The notes under the pieces: generated by a model | What the model was told of the DNA's origin: nothing | Databases searched by the model: none | What the model saw: only the letters and a program-made list of their open reading frames with translations | Position numbers and translations under genes: made by a program | Shown here: positions 795-25,074 of the stretch, piece after piece | Layout: the number at the start of each line of letters is the position of its first letter | Numbering within the stretch: position 1 is the first letter of the stretch | Virus record (IMG/VR): IMGVR_UViG_3300036985_000365 | Span: 1 to 38,201 of that record | Source: a virus | DNA: 38,201 bases | Reading direction: 5' to 3' (one strand)

Positions 795-2882
795 ATGGCT
801 GATCCAACAATTGATGAGTTATTGCAGTCGCTAAATGCAGCAGACGCTGCCGGTGATAAGCCGGCGGCCCAACAGATTGCCGACTACATTCGCATGCTTC
901 AAGCAATGCCACCTGGCGCTGACATCAACAAAACGACTGGCGCACCAATGGGTGTGCGTGCTGCTGTTGGTGCTGCATCAACTAGTGAAGACAAACTGTC
1001 AACGCTCAGGAAATTCTTTCCTGATGCACAGCAGTACGACAAAGACAATTTCATTTATACAGACCCAGCGACCAAGCGACCTACGCTGATGAATGAAAAC
1101 AACCCAAGATTTTTTGGCATCCCATTGCCGACAATGGGTGACATTGCCGGTGCTGGCCCAGAAATTTCAGAAATGGTTGGCTCTGGTCTTGGCGCTACTC
1201 TCATGGCTCCATTTGGGCCACCAGGCATGGTGGGCGGCGCAGCCACTGGTGGTGCTGCATTCAAAAAGCTGTACGAGATGGGCATGCAGTATGGCGGCCC
1301 GACAGTAGAGACTCGACCAGGATTGGAGCAGGCCGCTGGTGTAACAAAAGACATCACAGTCAATGCCGCTGGCCAAAGGTTTGGTCAGTTGATTGAGTCT
1401 GGTCTGCCAAGACTGTTGACCCCAATCCAAGAAAGGATTGCAGGCATTCGGCAAGGTATACCGCAAGCTGCTGCCCGTCAGAACATACCACTGCCTGCCG
1501 GTGTGGCCACGCAAAGCCCCGCCATTCAGCGGGTTGAGGCCGGTCTGTTACAGACTCCTGGCGGCGCTCAAGTCATTGCCCCCATGTACTCGAGGATGGC
1601 CGAGGCGATGGGTACACGCGCTACAGACATTGCTGAACGACTTTCCCGCGCAGTTCGGGGGCCAGGTGTTGAGCCTGGTGTGATGTTTACGGAAAAAGGC
1701 GGCTTGGGGAGTTTTGTACAACAAGGTGCAGACGCTGCAGGAAGGCGTTTTGCTCAAAGGCGCGAACAGCTAGACGATATTGTGTCCAACGCAGTCGGCC
1801 CACGAAACAGATTCCCAGCGACAAATACAGTTCAACTTATTGCTGATCTTGAAGCCCAAATTGCCAGAAGCCCAGAAACATACAGGCCAATGTTTGGGCC
1901 AGTTATTGAGCGTGCAAGGCGTGTGGTGACTGATGCACAGTCTGGTTTGGGCGGTATTGAATTTGACGCATTGCGTCAGGCAAGAACTGCTGTTGGTAGG
2001 GAATTGGAAAGACCAGACATTTCTGGTTTAACTCAGAGTCCAGCCCTAGCTCGACTGTATGACGCATTGCGAAGAGATGTGATCTCTGCGGCTGACCAGT
2101 CGGGCGACATAGCAAGTCGAGGAATTAGACTCCATGACCGATATGTGCGTTTCAACCGAACAGTCAATCTGCCTGCATTGCAGCGCATTGTTGATCAAGA
2201 CTTGGATGTGGCAGCGGCCAACATGGCGCTGTCAGGCACAAAGGACGGCATTGGCCGATTGCAACTGCTGCGCAGAAACTTTAGGCCCGAAGAGTGGGAC
2301 ACAGTTTCTGCATCAGTGTGGCAGCAACTGGGCAATGCCAAGGCCGGTGTAAAAGAAGGCGCGGAAGTTGGTGCAGACAGTTACCAATTCAGCCCCACAA
2401 CATTCTTGACCAACTGGATGAACTTGAGCGACAGCGCAAAAACTGTGCTGTTTGCTGGTGAGCGCTATCGCAATATCATTCCAGCCATGAACGACTTGGT
2501 CAGGGTGGCAACTGGTGCGCGTGAGGCTGGGAAGATGGTTAACACATCCAACACTGCTGGCGCTCAGATGGTGACATCAGCGCTGCTTGGCGGCGGCGGC
2601 TTGGCTGTTGGTGGTGCTGCCGGTCTAGACGCTACCAGCGCTTTGCTCGGTGGTGCGGCATCACTCAGTGGCTTGGTATTGACCAGCAACACGGCGGCCA
2701 GATTGTTGGAAAGCCCAAGGTTCATTCGCTGGGTGTCTGATACCAGCAGGGCTGTGGTCAATAATCCAAATTCGTTGAGTGCTCAAATTGGCAAGTTGTT
2801 GGCCATTGGTCAAGCAGAGCCAGGCATGAAAGACGCAATCGACACTTATTACAAGCAGATTAAATCTGTCACCGGCAAATAA
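795..2882 (+). CDS. Large internal virion / DNA-ejection-like protein (695 aa)
   Basis: A 695-residue protein starting three bases after the preceding stop (gap aaa) with little room for an independent promoter. It is Ala/Gly/Arg-rich with long helical stretches. Two hydrophobic Gly/Ala-rich segments are visible, one near residues 130-155 and a stronger one near 592-635 that could enter a membrane. There is no signal peptide and no catalytic motif. Its size, its place after the tail-hub and internal-protein genes, and the membrane-active segment fit a podovirus ejection protein (the role of T7 gp15/gp16 or P22 gp16/gp20), but no direct family assignment is possible by eye. Confidence 0.6.
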   Translation: MADPTIDELLQSLNAADAAGDKPAAQQIADYIRMLQAMPPGADINKTTGAPMGVRAAVGAASTSEDKLSTLRKFFPDAQQYDKDNFIYTDPATKRPTLMNENNPRFFGIPLPTMGDIAGAGPEISEMVGSGLGATLMAPFGPPGMVGGAATGGAAFKKLYEMGMQYGGPTVETRPGLEQAAGVTKDITVNAAGQRFGQLIESGLPRLLTPIQERIAGIRQGIPQAAARQNIPLPAGVATQSPAIQRVEAGLLQTPGGAQVIAPMYSRMAEAMGTRATDIAERLSRAVRGPGVEPGVMFTEKGGLGSFVQQGADAAGRRFAQRREQLDDIVSNAVGPRNRFPATNTVQLIADLEAQIARSPETYRPMFGPVIERARRVVTDAQSGLGGIEFDALRQARTAVGRELERPDISGLTQSPALARLYDALRRDVISAADQSGDIASRGIRLHDRYVRFNRTVNLPALQRIVDQDLDVAAANMALSGTKDGIGRLQLLRRNFRPEEWDTVSASVWQQLGNAKAGVKEGAEVGADSYQFSPTTFLTNWMNLSDSAKTVLFAGERYRNIIPAMNDLVRVATGAREAGKMVNTSNTAGAQMVTSALLGGGGLAVGGAAGLDATSALLGGAASLSGLVLTSNTAARLLESPRFIRWVSDTSRAVVNNPNSLSAQIGKLLAIGQAEPGMKDAIDTYYKQIKSVTGK

Positions 2883-2890
2883 GGAATATC

Positions 2891-4399
2891 ATGGCCCTGC
2901 TTGATGACGAAGAGTTGTTGCCATTCTTTGGCAACCCGAACATCCAGCGCCAAGGTGCAAGGGCCAGAGCCTTGGCCGCGCAGCGCGATGTCAACACGCT
3001 GCCTGACCCACGCACCTATGCCGCCGTCTCTGGCCTGCTGGGGCAAGCACCTGATGAGATGGGATTCAGTGTTCTGAATCCTCAGTATGAGTCAATCATG
3101 CAGACCGCCCGTCCGGCTTTTTATACCGGCACGGCACTGGGTGTGGCTCCATTGGCAAAGGTATTTCAAGCTCCAGCAATGGCCTTGGGCCGCGCTGGTG
3201 AGCGCATGGCTGAAAGGGTTGTCCCACAAATCATGCAGCGTGGCGGCTTGCCGGCTGAGTTATTGCAGGGCATGGCGCAGGGCAGCCGGTCAAATGTCTA
3301 TTTGCCAACAACGCCCAAAAATCCCAACCCCTTAGTCGGCACAAGGTACAAGACAGAGCAGTTGCCAGGCATTGTTCCAAGGCGGCCAGTTAATTGGAAT
3401 GAGCTTGAGGGCGGCAGCATCATGACATATCCAACGGATATTCTCAGCCGCAATACCAAGGTCACCAATGTCAGTGACATCCCCCTTGGGAGCAATTCAT
3501 TTGTTACCCCAGGCGGCCTGATGTACATGATGGATGAAGGCAATATCGCCAACAGAATTGGCTATGCATCCAACCAAGCCGCTGCGACTGCACAGAACAA
3601 CCGAGCATTACAAGCCATTGAGGAGAACTTGGCCCGTGGTGGCACTGGGCGCGTTTTTATGGCCCCACACACCATGCCGCCTGGTGGTGAGAATTTTTCA
3701 ACCGGCCCGACTTTGGGGTTGTTGTCGTTAATTGATGCGACAAATCCAAGCCCTCAATTGCTGGAGATGATTTCCAACCAGATGCGGCAAGCAACAGTTA
3801 AAGGTGTCAAAGGCAAGTACAAAGATTTTGCTGGCCTTAATGACCCAATGGCCAGAGAGCAGTTGCTTACTGGTGAAGGCTTAAAAGCTGGAAGTGCTGG
3901 TGACTTGAGGAAAATCTTTGTAGACAAGATGAGCAATGTCGCAGCAGAAAAGGGTTTGGGCTTCAACTACCCAGATTTGCAACGGGCGATGTTTGATCCC
4001 AATGTGATGAACAAGCAAAGTTTTTTGATGGGTGATGCGATCTATGAGGCATTACCAAAATTGGGTGTTCGACCTGGATCTCACGGCGCTTATGGATACG
4101 ACATGCCTGGTTTGTTTTTTGGCAATACCAGCGGCGCACCAGTGAGCCAATTCATGCAGCCCGTCTACAACAGAATCTTGCCGGAGCAAATGAACAAGCC
4201 TGGAGCCAGCTACAAAACATCTTCATTTGAAGATTTGTTTGGCCGACTTCAACAGCCTGGAGACATCCCCGCTGGAAACACATATGCCGACCCCAATCAA
4301 TTGACAAGGGGCCGGCTGTCCACTGGTGGCGAGAACATCTCCATGTTTATGGATGAGGCCGAGATCAAACGACTCAAGAAACTTCTTGGGGAAGAGTGA
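2891..4399 (+). CDS. Hypothetical virion-associated protein (502 aa)
   Basis: Starts 8 bases after the previous gene behind a weak AGGAAT site. The first ~150 residues contain Pro- and Ala-rich helices. From about residue 150 the sequence looks globular and enzyme-like, with many aromatic and Gly turns (for example the PGGLMYMMDEG stretch near residues 210-220 and a GGENF motif near 265). It resembles the globular domains of large phage proteins injected with DNA, but I do not recognise the fold and name no activity. It is the last gene of the rightward late operon and converges on the minus-strand cluster, its 3' end overlapping that cluster by 26 bp. Confidence 0.6.
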   Translation: MALLDDEELLPFFGNPNIQRQGARARALAAQRDVNTLPDPRTYAAVSGLLGQAPDEMGFSVLNPQYESIMQTARPAFYTGTALGVAPLAKVFQAPAMALGRAGERMAERVVPQIMQRGGLPAELLQGMAQGSRSNVYLPTTPKNPNPLVGTRYKTEQLPGIVPRRPVNWNELEGGSIMTYPTDILSRNTKVTNVSDIPLGSNSFVTPGGLMYMMDEGNIANRIGYASNQAAATAQNNRALQAIEENLARGGTGRVFMAPHTMPPGGENFSTGPTLGLLSLIDATNPSPQLLEMISNQMRQATVKGVKGKYKDFAGLNDPMAREQLLTGEGLKAGSAGDLRKIFVDKMSNVAAEKGLGFNYPDLQRAMFDPNVMNKQSFLMGDAIYEALPKLGVRPGSHGAYGYDMPGLFFGNTSGAPVSQFMQPVYNRILPEQMNKPGASYKTSSFEDLFGRLQQPGDIPAGNTYADPNQLTRGRLSTGGENISMFMDEAEIKRLKKLLGEE

Positions 4400-13349: not shown

Positions 13350-14018
13350 ATGACAGTGTTTGGATATGTGAGGGTATCAACCACAGAGCAGGTGGACAAC
13401 ACCTCGATGCAGGAGCAGAAGCGGCAAATCAGCGGCAACGCCATAACGCACAACCTGGTCATCAACCAGTTCATCGAGGATGGCGGCGTATCTGGCGCTG
13501 ACCCTTTCTTTGCACGGCTGGAAGCGAACGGCATCACCTTGGCAGAAGGCGACACTGTGATCGTGGCCAAGCTGGATCGGTTCAGCCGTGATCTGCTGGA
13601 TGCCTTGCAGTCTATAAAAAAATGCAAAGAGTTAAAAATAAAGCTCATCATCAACGGGCATGGCGATGTGACTGACAGCAGCAACATCTACGCGCAGTTG
13701 ATGCTGGAGATCTTGTGCAGCTTTGCCGGCCATGAGCGCAGAGTGATCAAGGAGAGGCAGAAGCAGGGGCAAGCCGCCAAGCGCAAGGCTGGTGGCCATC
13801 TGGGGGGTTCGGCCAAGTTCGGGTATGCCATCCAAGGCACTGGTCAAGCTGCCACGCTGGTGGCCAAGCCAGAGGAGCAGGCGGCACTGGCGTACGCGAA
13901 AGAGATGAGGGCGACAGGGATTAGTTTTCGGGGGATATCAAATATCTTAAAAACCAGCCACGGCGTGGTTGTCTCGCATGAGGCCATCCGCAGGGCATTA
14001 CAAGGAGAGACAGCATGA
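13350..14018 (+). CDS. Small serine recombinase (resolvase/invertase family, 222 aa)
   Basis: Starts behind TAGGAGCG. Catalytic-domain motifs: YVRVSTTEQ with nucleophile S10 and R8, an acidic strand INQFIEDGGVSG, AKLDRFSRDLLDAL with the active-site Arg77 region (73-86), then the long E-helix around MLEILCSFAGHERRVIKERQKQG. The C-terminal part carries GGHLGGSAKFGYA and an HTH-like SFRGISNILKTSHGVVVSHEAIRRAL. The length fits a resolvase or invertase rather than a large serine integrase. It could resolve multimers, invert a segment or mediate insertion. Its location between the terminase subunits is unusual. The stop overlaps the next ATG (ATGA). Confidence 0.9.
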   Translation: MTVFGYVRVSTTEQVDNTSMQEQKRQISGNAITHNLVINQFIEDGGVSGADPFFARLEANGITLAEGDTVIVAKLDRFSRDLLDALQSIKKCKELKIKLIINGHGDVTDSSNIYAQLMLEILCSFAGHERRVIKERQKQGQAAKRKAGGHLGGSAKFGYAIQGTGQAATLVAKPEEQAALAYAKEMRATGISFRGISNILKTSHGVVVSHEAIRRALQGETA

Positions 14019-22842: not shown

Positions 22843-22929
22843 ATGGCTATCGTTAGCAATACATTCCTGACTTACTCTGCAAAGGGTATTCGGGAAGATC
22901 TTAGCAATGTGATCACCAACATTGCGCCT
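22843..22929 (+). CDS. Major capsid protein, exon 1 (29 codons)
   Basis: ATG 22843 is preceded by GAGGAAAT. It encodes MAIVSNTFLTYSAKG...NVITNIAP, the typical N-terminus of SU10/pelagiphage-type capsid proteins, and then hits TAA at 22930 in frame. Homologues continue NIAPxETPxMSxIG, which is exactly what exon 2 supplies. The last base of the exon is U (22929), as required for a group I 5' splice site. Without splicing, only this 29-residue peptide is made. Confidence 0.88.
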
Positions 22930-23189
22930 TAACTTGAGGGCCGTTGCAGAGTAATTTGCAATTGACACTAGGAGAATTGCTGGAAACCCCTAACGGATAG
23001 GCAGCCGAGGGCAATCAGCAGCCGAGCCTCGCAAGAGGAAGGTTCAACGACTAGATCGAAAGATCGTAGGGCCAAGTGGCCCGAAGCACCTAGCCCCACG
23101 AAAGTGGGTGAAGATATAGTCTGATCTGCATGGAAACATGCAGTCCCGAGAGGGAGGCAAGGTCTAACGAGCCTTGTTCAACACGGATG
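22930..23189 (+). ncRNA. Group I self-splicing intron (subgroup IA-like), 260 nt
   Basis: All four conserved boxes are present: P AATTGCTGGAAA (22975-22986), Q AATCAGCAGCC (23013-23023), R GTTCAACGACTA (23042-23053), S AAGATATAGTC (23111-23121). Pairings seen: P1 GCCU/GGGC (22926-22929/22938-22941, with the U.G at the splice site), P2 (22944-22948/22957-22961), P3 CUAGG/CCUAG (22968-22972/23089-23093), P4 (22977-22982/23016-23021), P6 with a GCAA loop, P7 GACUA/UAGUC (23049-23053/23117-23121), P8 CCCAC-GAAA-GUGGG (23095-23108), and P9 hairpins (23126-23143, 23144-23155). Two extra hairpins between P7 and P3' (23054-23065, 23069-23082) indicate subgroup IA. Ends in G (23189). No endonuclease ORF. 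Confidence 0.93.
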
Positions 23190-24065
23190 GAAGAGACGCC
23201 TTACATGTCGAACATTGGACGCGAGAATGTGTCCAATAGCTTGTTTGAGTGGCAGACTGACACATTGGCCGCAGCCGCTGCCAATGCACAGTTAGAGGGT
23301 GACGATGTTGCATCGTTTGACTCTGTAACTGCTACTGTGCGTCTGCAAAACTACGCACAGATTTCACGCAAGACGATCATCCTGTCTGCCACTGAAGAAG
23401 TGGTGAACAAGGCTGGCCGCCGCAGCGAACTGGCTTACCAGATCGCAAAGCGTGGTTCTGAGTTGAAGCGCGACCAAGAGTTTGTCATGCTGAACGGCGG
23501 TATCGCTGTTTCTGGTGACTCTACGACTGCCCGTGTGACTGCATCCCTCGGCGCGTTTGTGAAAACAAACACCGACAAGCAGACCAACGGTACTGATCCA
23601 TCGTATACAACGCTGCCAAACAGCGCCCGTACCGATGGCAATGTGCGTACCTTCACTGAAACCATTCTCAAGAATGTGATTCAGAAGGTGTGGACTGCTG
23701 GTGGTACACCGAAGATCCTGATGTGCGGCCCTGTGAACAAGCAGCGCGTATCTGGTTTCTCTGGTATTGCCTCCAGCCGTTTCAACATTGATGGAGGTGC
23801 AAAGCCTGCCACATTGATCGGTGCAGTTGACATTTATGTCTCTGACTTCGGCAATGTGTCTGTGATTGCCAACCGCTTCCAGCGTGAGCGTGATGCATGG
23901 GTGATCGATCCTGACTACGCCAAGATGACTGTGCTGCGTCCTTACCAGCAAGTCGAACTGGCCAAGACAGGTGACGCTGAGAAGCGCATGCTGATCGTTG
24001 AGTGGGGTCACAAAGTGCTGGCTGAAAATGCCCACGGCTTGGCCGCTGACTTGGTTACTTCTTAA
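23190..24065 (+). CDS. Major capsid protein, exon 2 (291 residues)
   Basis: Reading from 23190 (EETPYMSNIGREN) continues exon 1 in frame to a 320-residue HK97-fold-type capsid protein of the SU10/pelagiphage kind. The EWQTDTLAAAAANAQLEG region, the AQISRKTIILSATEEVVNKAG spine-helix region, QEFVMLNGG and the C-terminal KTGDAEKRMLIVEWGHKVLAEN are characteristic. An ATG formed by the last three intron bases (23187-23189) could start exon 2 alone on unspliced RNA, but no good ribosome site precedes it. A strong terminator follows the stop. Confidence 0.9.
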   Translation, partial: EETPYMSNIGRENVSNSLFEWQTDTLAAAAANAQLEGDDVASFDSVTATVRLQNYAQISRKTIILSATEEVVNKAGRRSELAYQIAKRGSELKRDQEFVMLNGGIAVSGDSTTARVTASLGAFVKTNTDKQTNGTDPSYTTLPNSARTDGNVRTFTETILKNVIQKVWTAGGTPKILMCGPVNKQRVSGFSGIASSRFNIDGGAKPATLIGAVDIYVSDFGNVSVIANRFQRERDAWVIDPDYAKMTVLRPYQQVELAKTGDAEKRMLIVEWGHKVLAENAHGLAADLVTS

Positions 24066-24109: not shown

Positions 24110-24427
24110 ATGATTCACAAAAGATTACTTAGCGAAAACAAAGATCAAGGCATCTCGCGGTACTGGCATCAAAATCCAGAAACTGGCGATGTGACGATCC
24201 AAACAGAACAAGATGTGACGGCGGTGATTGAGGCCAACAAGGCCATCTACAACGCTGTGGACGGCAAGGCCAACTGGACAGGCGAGTGGCACTTGGTGGC
24301 ATCCATCCCCGAAGCTCTCTATTACAAGATGAAGGCCGAGGGCAAGATCGATGATCAAGAGTACATGAAGCGCTGGCTCAACGACTCAGACAATCAATTT
24401 TTTAGAACACGACCTGGGAAAGTATGA
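24110..24427 (+). CDS. Virion-associated hypothetical protein (105 aa)
   Basis: Starts three bases after the terminator T-run. The product begins MIHKRLLSENKDQGISRYWH, has an acidic helix TEQDVTAVIEANKAIYN and a C-terminal YYKMKAEGKIDDQEYMKRWL that looks like a small helical bundle. This type is found next to capsid genes of environmental podoviruses. No Shine-Dalgarno is visible, since the terminator occupies its place. Function unknown. Coupled by ATGA to the glycosyltransferase. Confidence 0.65.
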   Translation: MIHKRLLSENKDQGISRYWHQNPETGDVTIQTEQDVTAVIEANKAIYNAVDGKANWTGEWHLVASIPEALYYKMKAEGKIDDQEYMKRWLNDSDNQFFRTRPGKV

Positions 24428-25074
24428 ACTACATTGCCGTTTGCACCCCTGCCCGTGATCAGGTTCACACCAATTACACCTACTGCATGGTGAACATGGT
24501 GGCCTATCACACGCTCAACACCACAGACGCAATCAGTCTGAAATTGATGCAAGGCACAATTATCCAAAACCAAAGGGCTGACCTTTGCTTGGATGCGATG
24601 GCTGAAGGATGCACGCACATCCTGTTTATTGACTCGGACATGACTTTCCCGCAGGACATGGTCGGCAAGCTGCTGGCTCACGACAAGCCCATCGTGGCCG
24701 CCAATTGCGCACGGCGCAGGATGCCCACTGGCCCGACTGCCCAGAACTATGACGCCGAAGGCAAGCGCAAATCTGTCTACACCATGCCAGAATCCACCGG
24801 ATTGGAAGAGGTGGGGAGCATTGGCACTGGCATAATGCTCATCAAGCGCGAGGTGTTTGAGGGCATGAGCGAGCCGTGGTTTGATATGCCGTGGCAGACT
24901 TCACGGGGCTACATGGGTGAGGATGTGTTCTTTTGTAAGAAAGCGCAAGAGCTTGGTTACAAGGTGTACATCGACCATGATGTCTCAAAGGAAATTGGCC
25001 ACATTGGCACATTTGAATTTCGCCATGAGCACACCTGGATCGTCAAAGAGGAAATGGAAAAAGAGGCTCAATAA
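24424..25074 (+). CDS. GT-A glycosyltransferase (216 aa)
   Basis: AVCTPARDQVHTNYT, the metal-binding DSD (residues 70-72 in HILFIDSDMTF), AANCARRR, GTGIMLIKREVFE, and the GED motif (165-167, GYMGEDVFFC) with a following HDVSKEIGH. This set defines the phage GT2-like family widespread in environmental phages. It is a second glycosyltransferase, placed after the capsid gene, so glycosylation of virion or host surface is suggested. Acceptor unknown. Confidence 0.82.
   Translation: MNYIAVCTPARDQVHTNYTYCMVNMVAYHTLNTTDAISLKLMQGTIIQNQRADLCLDAMAEGCTHILFIDSDMTFPQDMVGKLLAHDKPIVAANCARRRMPTGPTAQNYDAEGKRKSVYTMPESTGLEEVGSIGTGIMLIKREVFEGMSEPWFDMPWQTSRGYMGEDVFFCKKAQELGYKVYIDHDVSKEIGHIGTFEFRHEHTWIVKEEMEKEAQ

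Follow-up and report, generated by a model that had tools for sequence, protein, structure and literature searches.

Group I introns in phage genes

The td, nrdB and nrdD introns of phage T4 belong to subgroup IA2; they have the P7.1 and P7.2 hairpins, a U.G pair at the splice site and a stop codon at or near the intron start. The intron described here is located in the major capsid gene of a virus record of 38,201 nt (IMG/VR IMGVR_UViG_3300036985_000365), the whole of which was analysed and is referred to as the window. It resembles the T4 introns in its core layout, its P7.1 and P7.2 hairpins, its U.G splice site and the stop at its start, but it interrupts a capsid gene and not a gene of nucleotide metabolism, and it has no nuclease ORF.

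Introns in virion genes have been described in Cluster J mycobacteriophages, where the splicing of the LittleE capsid intron and of the BAKA and Optimus tail intron was proven by RT-PCR; the BAKA intron is 265 bp long and nuclease-free, and the LittleE intron, of about 820 bp, includes a LAGLIDADG-like ORF (PMC3706429). Our locus shares with these phages the presence of introns in virion genes, in the capsid gene in the case of LittleE and free of a nuclease in that of BAKA; nevertheless, the phages are unrelated, and those of Cluster J have one intron per gene. The lactococcal phage Tuc2009, as cited in the same article, also has a group I intron in its capsid gene (PMC3706429). In the Delta and Zeta crAss-like phages, capsid-gene group I introns have been reported, several of them in one gene (OLRF01000054) (PMC7886860). 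These were found through their encoded intron domains and are spread over many genes, whereas the introns of the phages studied here are nuclease-free, occur in the capsid gene only, as far as searched, and are carried by contigs of 17-52 kb. Finally, the Bastillevirinae resemble our phages in the abundance of group I introns, many of IA2 type, within a single lineage; theirs differ in their location in DNA polymerase, ribonucleotide reductase and terminase genes, in an article in which the word "capsid" is absent, and in that many have nuclease ORFs (PMC11878797).

A preliminary description of the locus regarded introns in phage capsid genes as rare, which is overstated, given that those of LittleE and Tuc2009 (PMC3706429) and of crAss-like phages (PMC7886860) are already in print. 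In the open-access literature, we found no report of SU10-type phages with nuclease-free introns that are confined to the capsid gene and occupy three sites in it. Based on the analyses presented below, the intron is very probably a self-splicing group I intron of subgroup IA that has no nuclease gene of its own and represents one of three site-specific lineages that are gained and lost in this capsid gene; recombination between co-infecting phages, with a short tract of exon carried along, would be the simplest route.

A group I intron between codons 29 and 30 of the capsid gene

All features of the window given below are located on the plus strand. Exon 1 of the major capsid gene (22843-22929), preceded on its 5′ side by the Shine-Dalgarno-like sequence GAGGAAATT, opens with an ATG at 22843 and runs for 29 codons up to an in-frame UAA (22930-22932), the first codon of the intron. 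The reading frame reopens at 23190 as exon 2 (23190-24065) and ends at the stop codon 24063-24065. The predicted spliced protein, of 320 aa, matches the SU10 major capsid protein family (PF17236) over residues 5-317 (E = 3.9e-91) and is assigned by PHROG to the major head protein; the portal and scaffold genes are located upstream of the capsid gene. The sole match to the capsid in genome_contigs was a 53% identical capsid protein in a Desulfuromonadales MAG, too distant to name a host.

Using cmscan, we identified a single Rfam match in the window, to the group I intron family RF00028 (22920-23143, full model 1-253; score 79.4 bits, gathering threshold 50; E = 9.3e-19), with no second Rfam family and no second intron found. 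This match ends at P9, short of the 3′ splice site; the 3′ end was fixed at 23189 because the intronless homologues join codon 29 directly to codon 30. In 80 IMG/VR relatives, the same protein is uninterrupted and the exons are joined exactly as predicted. The closest of these homologues (L002/L163) has 319/320 identical residues and 96.7% identical bases, with codon 29 followed by codon 30. Thus, the 260-nt segment 22930-23189 is a group I intron that separates codon 29 from codon 30 in an SU10-type major capsid gene, from which its removal by splicing is predicted. The coordinates and the 80 uninterrupted homologues agree with the claim of the preliminary description that a 29-codon capsid start ends at a TAA and resumes in frame 260 bases later, and the covariance-model match bears out its assignment to group I. 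The U before and the G at the end of the intron, to which it had also pointed, are present in 82/82 delimited introns. Related introns score 69.5-92.3 bits against RF00028.

An intein or in-frame insert was rejected, since a stop is the first codon in 26/27 introns of this site, and an assembly artefact in the window was rejected because dozens of contigs from different data sets have the same intron at the same site between diverged exons. It is extremely improbable that there is no intron and that the capsid gene starts at an internal ATG (23130 or 23187), the upstream piece being a dead ORF or one of its own. The two ATGs do lie in frame, and this frame of the window stays open from 23130; nevertheless, neither is preceded by a Shine-Dalgarno sequence, a stop is present 6 nt before exon 2 in 18 of the 27 introns of this site, and exon 1 is fused to exon 2 in the intronless homologues, so this candidate was rejected. 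The preliminary description had raised homologues that start at 23187 and lack the exon-1 residues; the intronless homologues that reach the site encode these residues. The terminal AUG of most introns is better read as the 3′ side of P9.0 plus the terminal G because it is out of frame at the two other sites described below.

For the annotation of such genomes, we note that the in-frame ORF 23130-24065 (311 aa) begins in P9 and may be taken by a gene caller as the capsid gene, hiding exon 1. Elsewhere in the window, a serine recombinase (PF00239, Resolvase; 222 aa; 13350-14018), a possible integrase, is located between the terminase genes, and a weak Anp1/glycosyltransferase-like match (24424-25074) is located amid the head genes. 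In L004/L185, a capsid coding fragment is repeated at the contig start (positions 1-93) and fused to the end of the scaffold gene, a pattern that resembles misassembly.

RNA structure and covariation

We assigned the structure by hand, from P1 to P9.2 plus P9.0, and evaluated covariation by aligning 23 introns that represent three insertion sites. All 71 hand-assigned pairs are standard in the window. Across the alignment, 94.0% of the cells pair, and 46 pairs have two-sided changes; in controls in which the partners were slid by 1-3 columns, 31-45% of the cells pair, and 9-16 pairs have two-sided changes. The corresponding covariation scores are 0.497 and 0.05-0.11. Most of the helices are supported by two-sided changes.

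P1 (22926-22941) is formed by the exon end 22926-22930 with the guide 22937-22941, and includes the pair U22929.G22938 at the 5′ splice site; this U.G is present in 23/23 aligned introns, and the exon-guide helix covaries (GC to AU and GC to CG). It is followed by the P2 hairpin (22943-22962). P3 (22968-22972 with 23089-23093, plus 22974 with 23087) is pseudoknotted with P7, and P4 (22977-22982 with 23016-23021) encloses P5; in each of the two, four pairs have two-sided changes. P6 and P6a occupy 23022-23042. P7 (23049-23053 with 23117-23121), by homology the guanosine-binding helix, is present in all the introns. The P8 hairpin is located at 23095-23108, and P9 (23126-23143), P9.1 (23144-23155) and P9.2 (23156-23178) follow. 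The intron closes with the 3′ side of P9.0 (23187-23188, partner 23124-23125) and the terminal G (23189). The helices P3, P4, P6 and P7 are paired in 100% of the cells and P8 in 98%, with two-sided changes in P3, P4 and P8; P7 and two P6 pairs are invariant, and hence conserved but outside the reach of the covariation test. Pairing in P5 holds up poorly from one site to another, a few introns have an imperfect P9.0, and P10 is weak or absent at the site of the window intron.

Between P7 and the 3′ strand of P3, two hairpins, P7.1 (23054-23065) and P7.2 (23069-23082), are both present and both covary; their position indicates that the intron belongs to subgroup IA, as the preliminary description had proposed.

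In the mechanism that we propose, the transcribed RNA would fold into P1-P9, presumably with no need of a protein. A guanosine bound in P7 would attack the U.G-marked bond after 22929, the freed end of exon 1 would attack the bond that follows the terminal G (23189), and translation of the ligated mRNA would give the 320-aa capsid protein. Ribosomes on unspliced mRNA would halt at the UAA at the intron start, staying off the ribozyme core. The published view is that folding of the ribozyme benefits when ribosomes are stopped at the start of the intron (PMC3984707). The UAA as the first codon of the window intron, together with a first in-frame stop 0-23 nt into every intron of the three sites, fits this view.

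It had also been claimed that virion production is controlled by RNA splicing. This is overstated, as nothing that we found supports regulation. If the intron works as predicted, splicing would be no more than a necessity for virion production, and the existence of close relatives without the intron argues that a regulatory role is not essential and that the intron is dispensable.

Intron sites and their occupancy among relatives

A scan that combined the S box with the start of exon 2 identified 33 further contigs, most of which share the site of the window intron and have a 260-nt intron there. The extra breaks observed in exon 2 of some relatives proved to be RF00028 introns as well, and with two further scans, three sites were defined in the capsid gene: A, after codon 29; B, in codon 112; and C, in codon 246. 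In the window, site B (23436/23437, phase 1), where relatives have a group I intron of 301-320 nt, and site C (23839/23840, phase 2), where they have one of 264-268 nt, are empty. Considering 199 distinct sequences, in a set enriched in carriers by our searches, 124 have no intron, 20 have A, 8 B, 14 C, 7 AC, 5 BC, 1 AB and 2 ABC, and 18 are incompletely covered. Hence, all seven combinations occur, with up to three introns in one gene. Most complete cases are predicted to splice to proteins of 320-321 aa. In 18 contigs of 17-52 kb, the 24 RF00028 matches equal the number of capsid-gene introns. A search for the intron in named phages gave 869 records with partial matches to the core, none covering 80% of the query. 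A more distant case was observed in L090 (9511-9774, minus strand) and also in L112, where a capsid gene of 40% identity is interrupted, 3 nt downstream of site A, by an intron that has a matching guide of its own.

Spread of the introns

The introns group by site, with mean identities of 0.90-0.92 within sites and 0.63-0.68 between sites, and in 304/325, 120/120 and 324/325 of the same-site pairs at A, B and C, the introns are more similar to each other than the exons are. On the capsid-gene tree, the occupancy of sites A (26 carriers), B (16 carriers) and C (26 carriers) must have changed at least 21, 13 and 17 times, respectively; as the tree is that of one gene, itself recombining, the number of gains is rough. 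The distribution is therefore patchy, at fixed sites and out of step with the host gene, as is characteristic of mobile introns; the encoded homing endonuclease that also characterizes them is absent from an intron of 260 nt with no ORF. The exon identity of carriers is raised within 20-40 nt of the site. In the comparison of the window with L083, the introns are 98.1% identical and the first 90 nt of the gene are identical, with 81% identity over the exons as a whole and a strong divergence along much of exon 2. This pattern is compatible with a transfer by recombination that would have carried short flanks. The raised flank identity may partly mirror the need for exon 1 to match the guide and not co-conversion.

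These observations bear on how the lineages move. Plain homologous recombination between co-infecting phages, with neither a nuclease nor an RNA step and with the introns as near-neutral passengers, would account for the mosaic capsid genes and for the low prevalence, about 9 carriers of at least one intron among the 119 contigs listed in a sample not selected for introns. We rate it at somewhat below an even chance, given that the number of occupancy changes, at least 13-21 per site, and the far closer resemblance of the introns than of their exons suggest something beyond passive drift, and that a change of site in one contig, described below, is left unexplained.

The introns could also be remnants of a homing intron that a nuclease, encoded elsewhere in a co-infecting phage, spreads in trans (collaborative homing) by cutting intronless alleles at sites A, B and C. 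Site-specific clades and short flank tracts would be expected from this process, and collaborative homing of ORF-less phage introns is known (PMC3984707). In a distant relative, L084, a 199-aa ORF with an HNH-like pattern (CGMC...HH...CEKC; 2522-3121, minus strand) is located between exons 1 and 2 of a capsid gene of 28% identity, inside an intron a few codons upstream of site A (RF00028 match 2498-2734). Nevertheless, the window record has no match to the HNH, HNH_3 and GIY-YIG models, and the ORFs scanned in it include no nuclease; in the 18 carrier contigs, searched for HNH_3 and GIY-YIG, the former matched one contig, that of L104, and the latter none. The absence of nucleases refers to these three families and is not proven, in genomes with many genes of no known function. 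Moreover, trans homing alone would not explain the contig with the change of site, and we regard it as possible but on balance doubtful. The introns are apparently passed on by recombination, with homing enzymes almost undetected.

A displaced copy in L266

A scan for the 5′ end of A-type introns gave 27 contigs. In one of them, L266, site A is empty, and a 260-nt A-type intron (RF00028, 85.5 bits; reverse strand, about 3466-3725) is located in codon 60, at a position that we call site D and that is empty in the window (23280/23281, phase 1). This intron is 99.2% identical to the A introns of L087 and L105, with 2 differences in 260 positions, and L266 and L087 are otherwise collinear, at 94-97%. 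Sites D and A have only the 4-nt guide target GCCU in common. At the position of site D, L087 reads GCCG, which means that the required U either arrived together with the intron or preceded it. Positions at which L266 and L087 differ are clustered immediately downstream of the new site (nt 178-363). From this clustering, we infer that L266 probably received the intron together with flanking DNA from an unseen donor by recombination. The change of site itself would then be older than this acquisition and may have occurred by reverse splicing or illegitimate recombination. The displaced copy is one contig, and a scan for C-type introns gave no displaced copy.

Such a near-identical intron, at another site that shares only GCCU and in an otherwise collinear genome, is what transposition at the RNA level would produce, that is, reverse splicing at short guide targets in the capsid mRNA followed by reverse transcription and recombination; the restriction of group I introns to the capsid gene in the 18 contigs also fits. 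We consider this route unlikely: the evidence comes from a single contig, a guide match is needed for splicing whatever the route of arrival, no source of reverse transcriptase is known, and the clustered differences indicate that the L266 copy probably came by recombination with a donor. A review notes that no experiment directly supports the spread of group I introns through reverse splicing and that rDNA provides the best circumstantial evidence for it (PMC3984707). Even less probable is the broader proposal in which the capsid gene would be an arena of RNA-guided transposition, with nuclease-free introns that reverse-splice into capsid mRNA at guide targets of 4-5 nt, L266 as a caught displacement, and subsequent spread by recombination. 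In the explanation that we favor, an intron lineage would move by recombination between co-infecting phages, carrying a short exon tract along.

Biological significance

Capsid introns, even several per gene, were already published; what adds interest here is the population pattern and the displaced copy. In these small phages, three nuclease-free lineages are found at fixed sites of one essential gene, in all combinations, next to intronless sisters and with one near-identical intron at a new site. They offer a workable natural system for the study of the movement of nuclease-free introns and of their cost or benefit to the phage, and the copy at the new position in L266 could help to test how such elements move.
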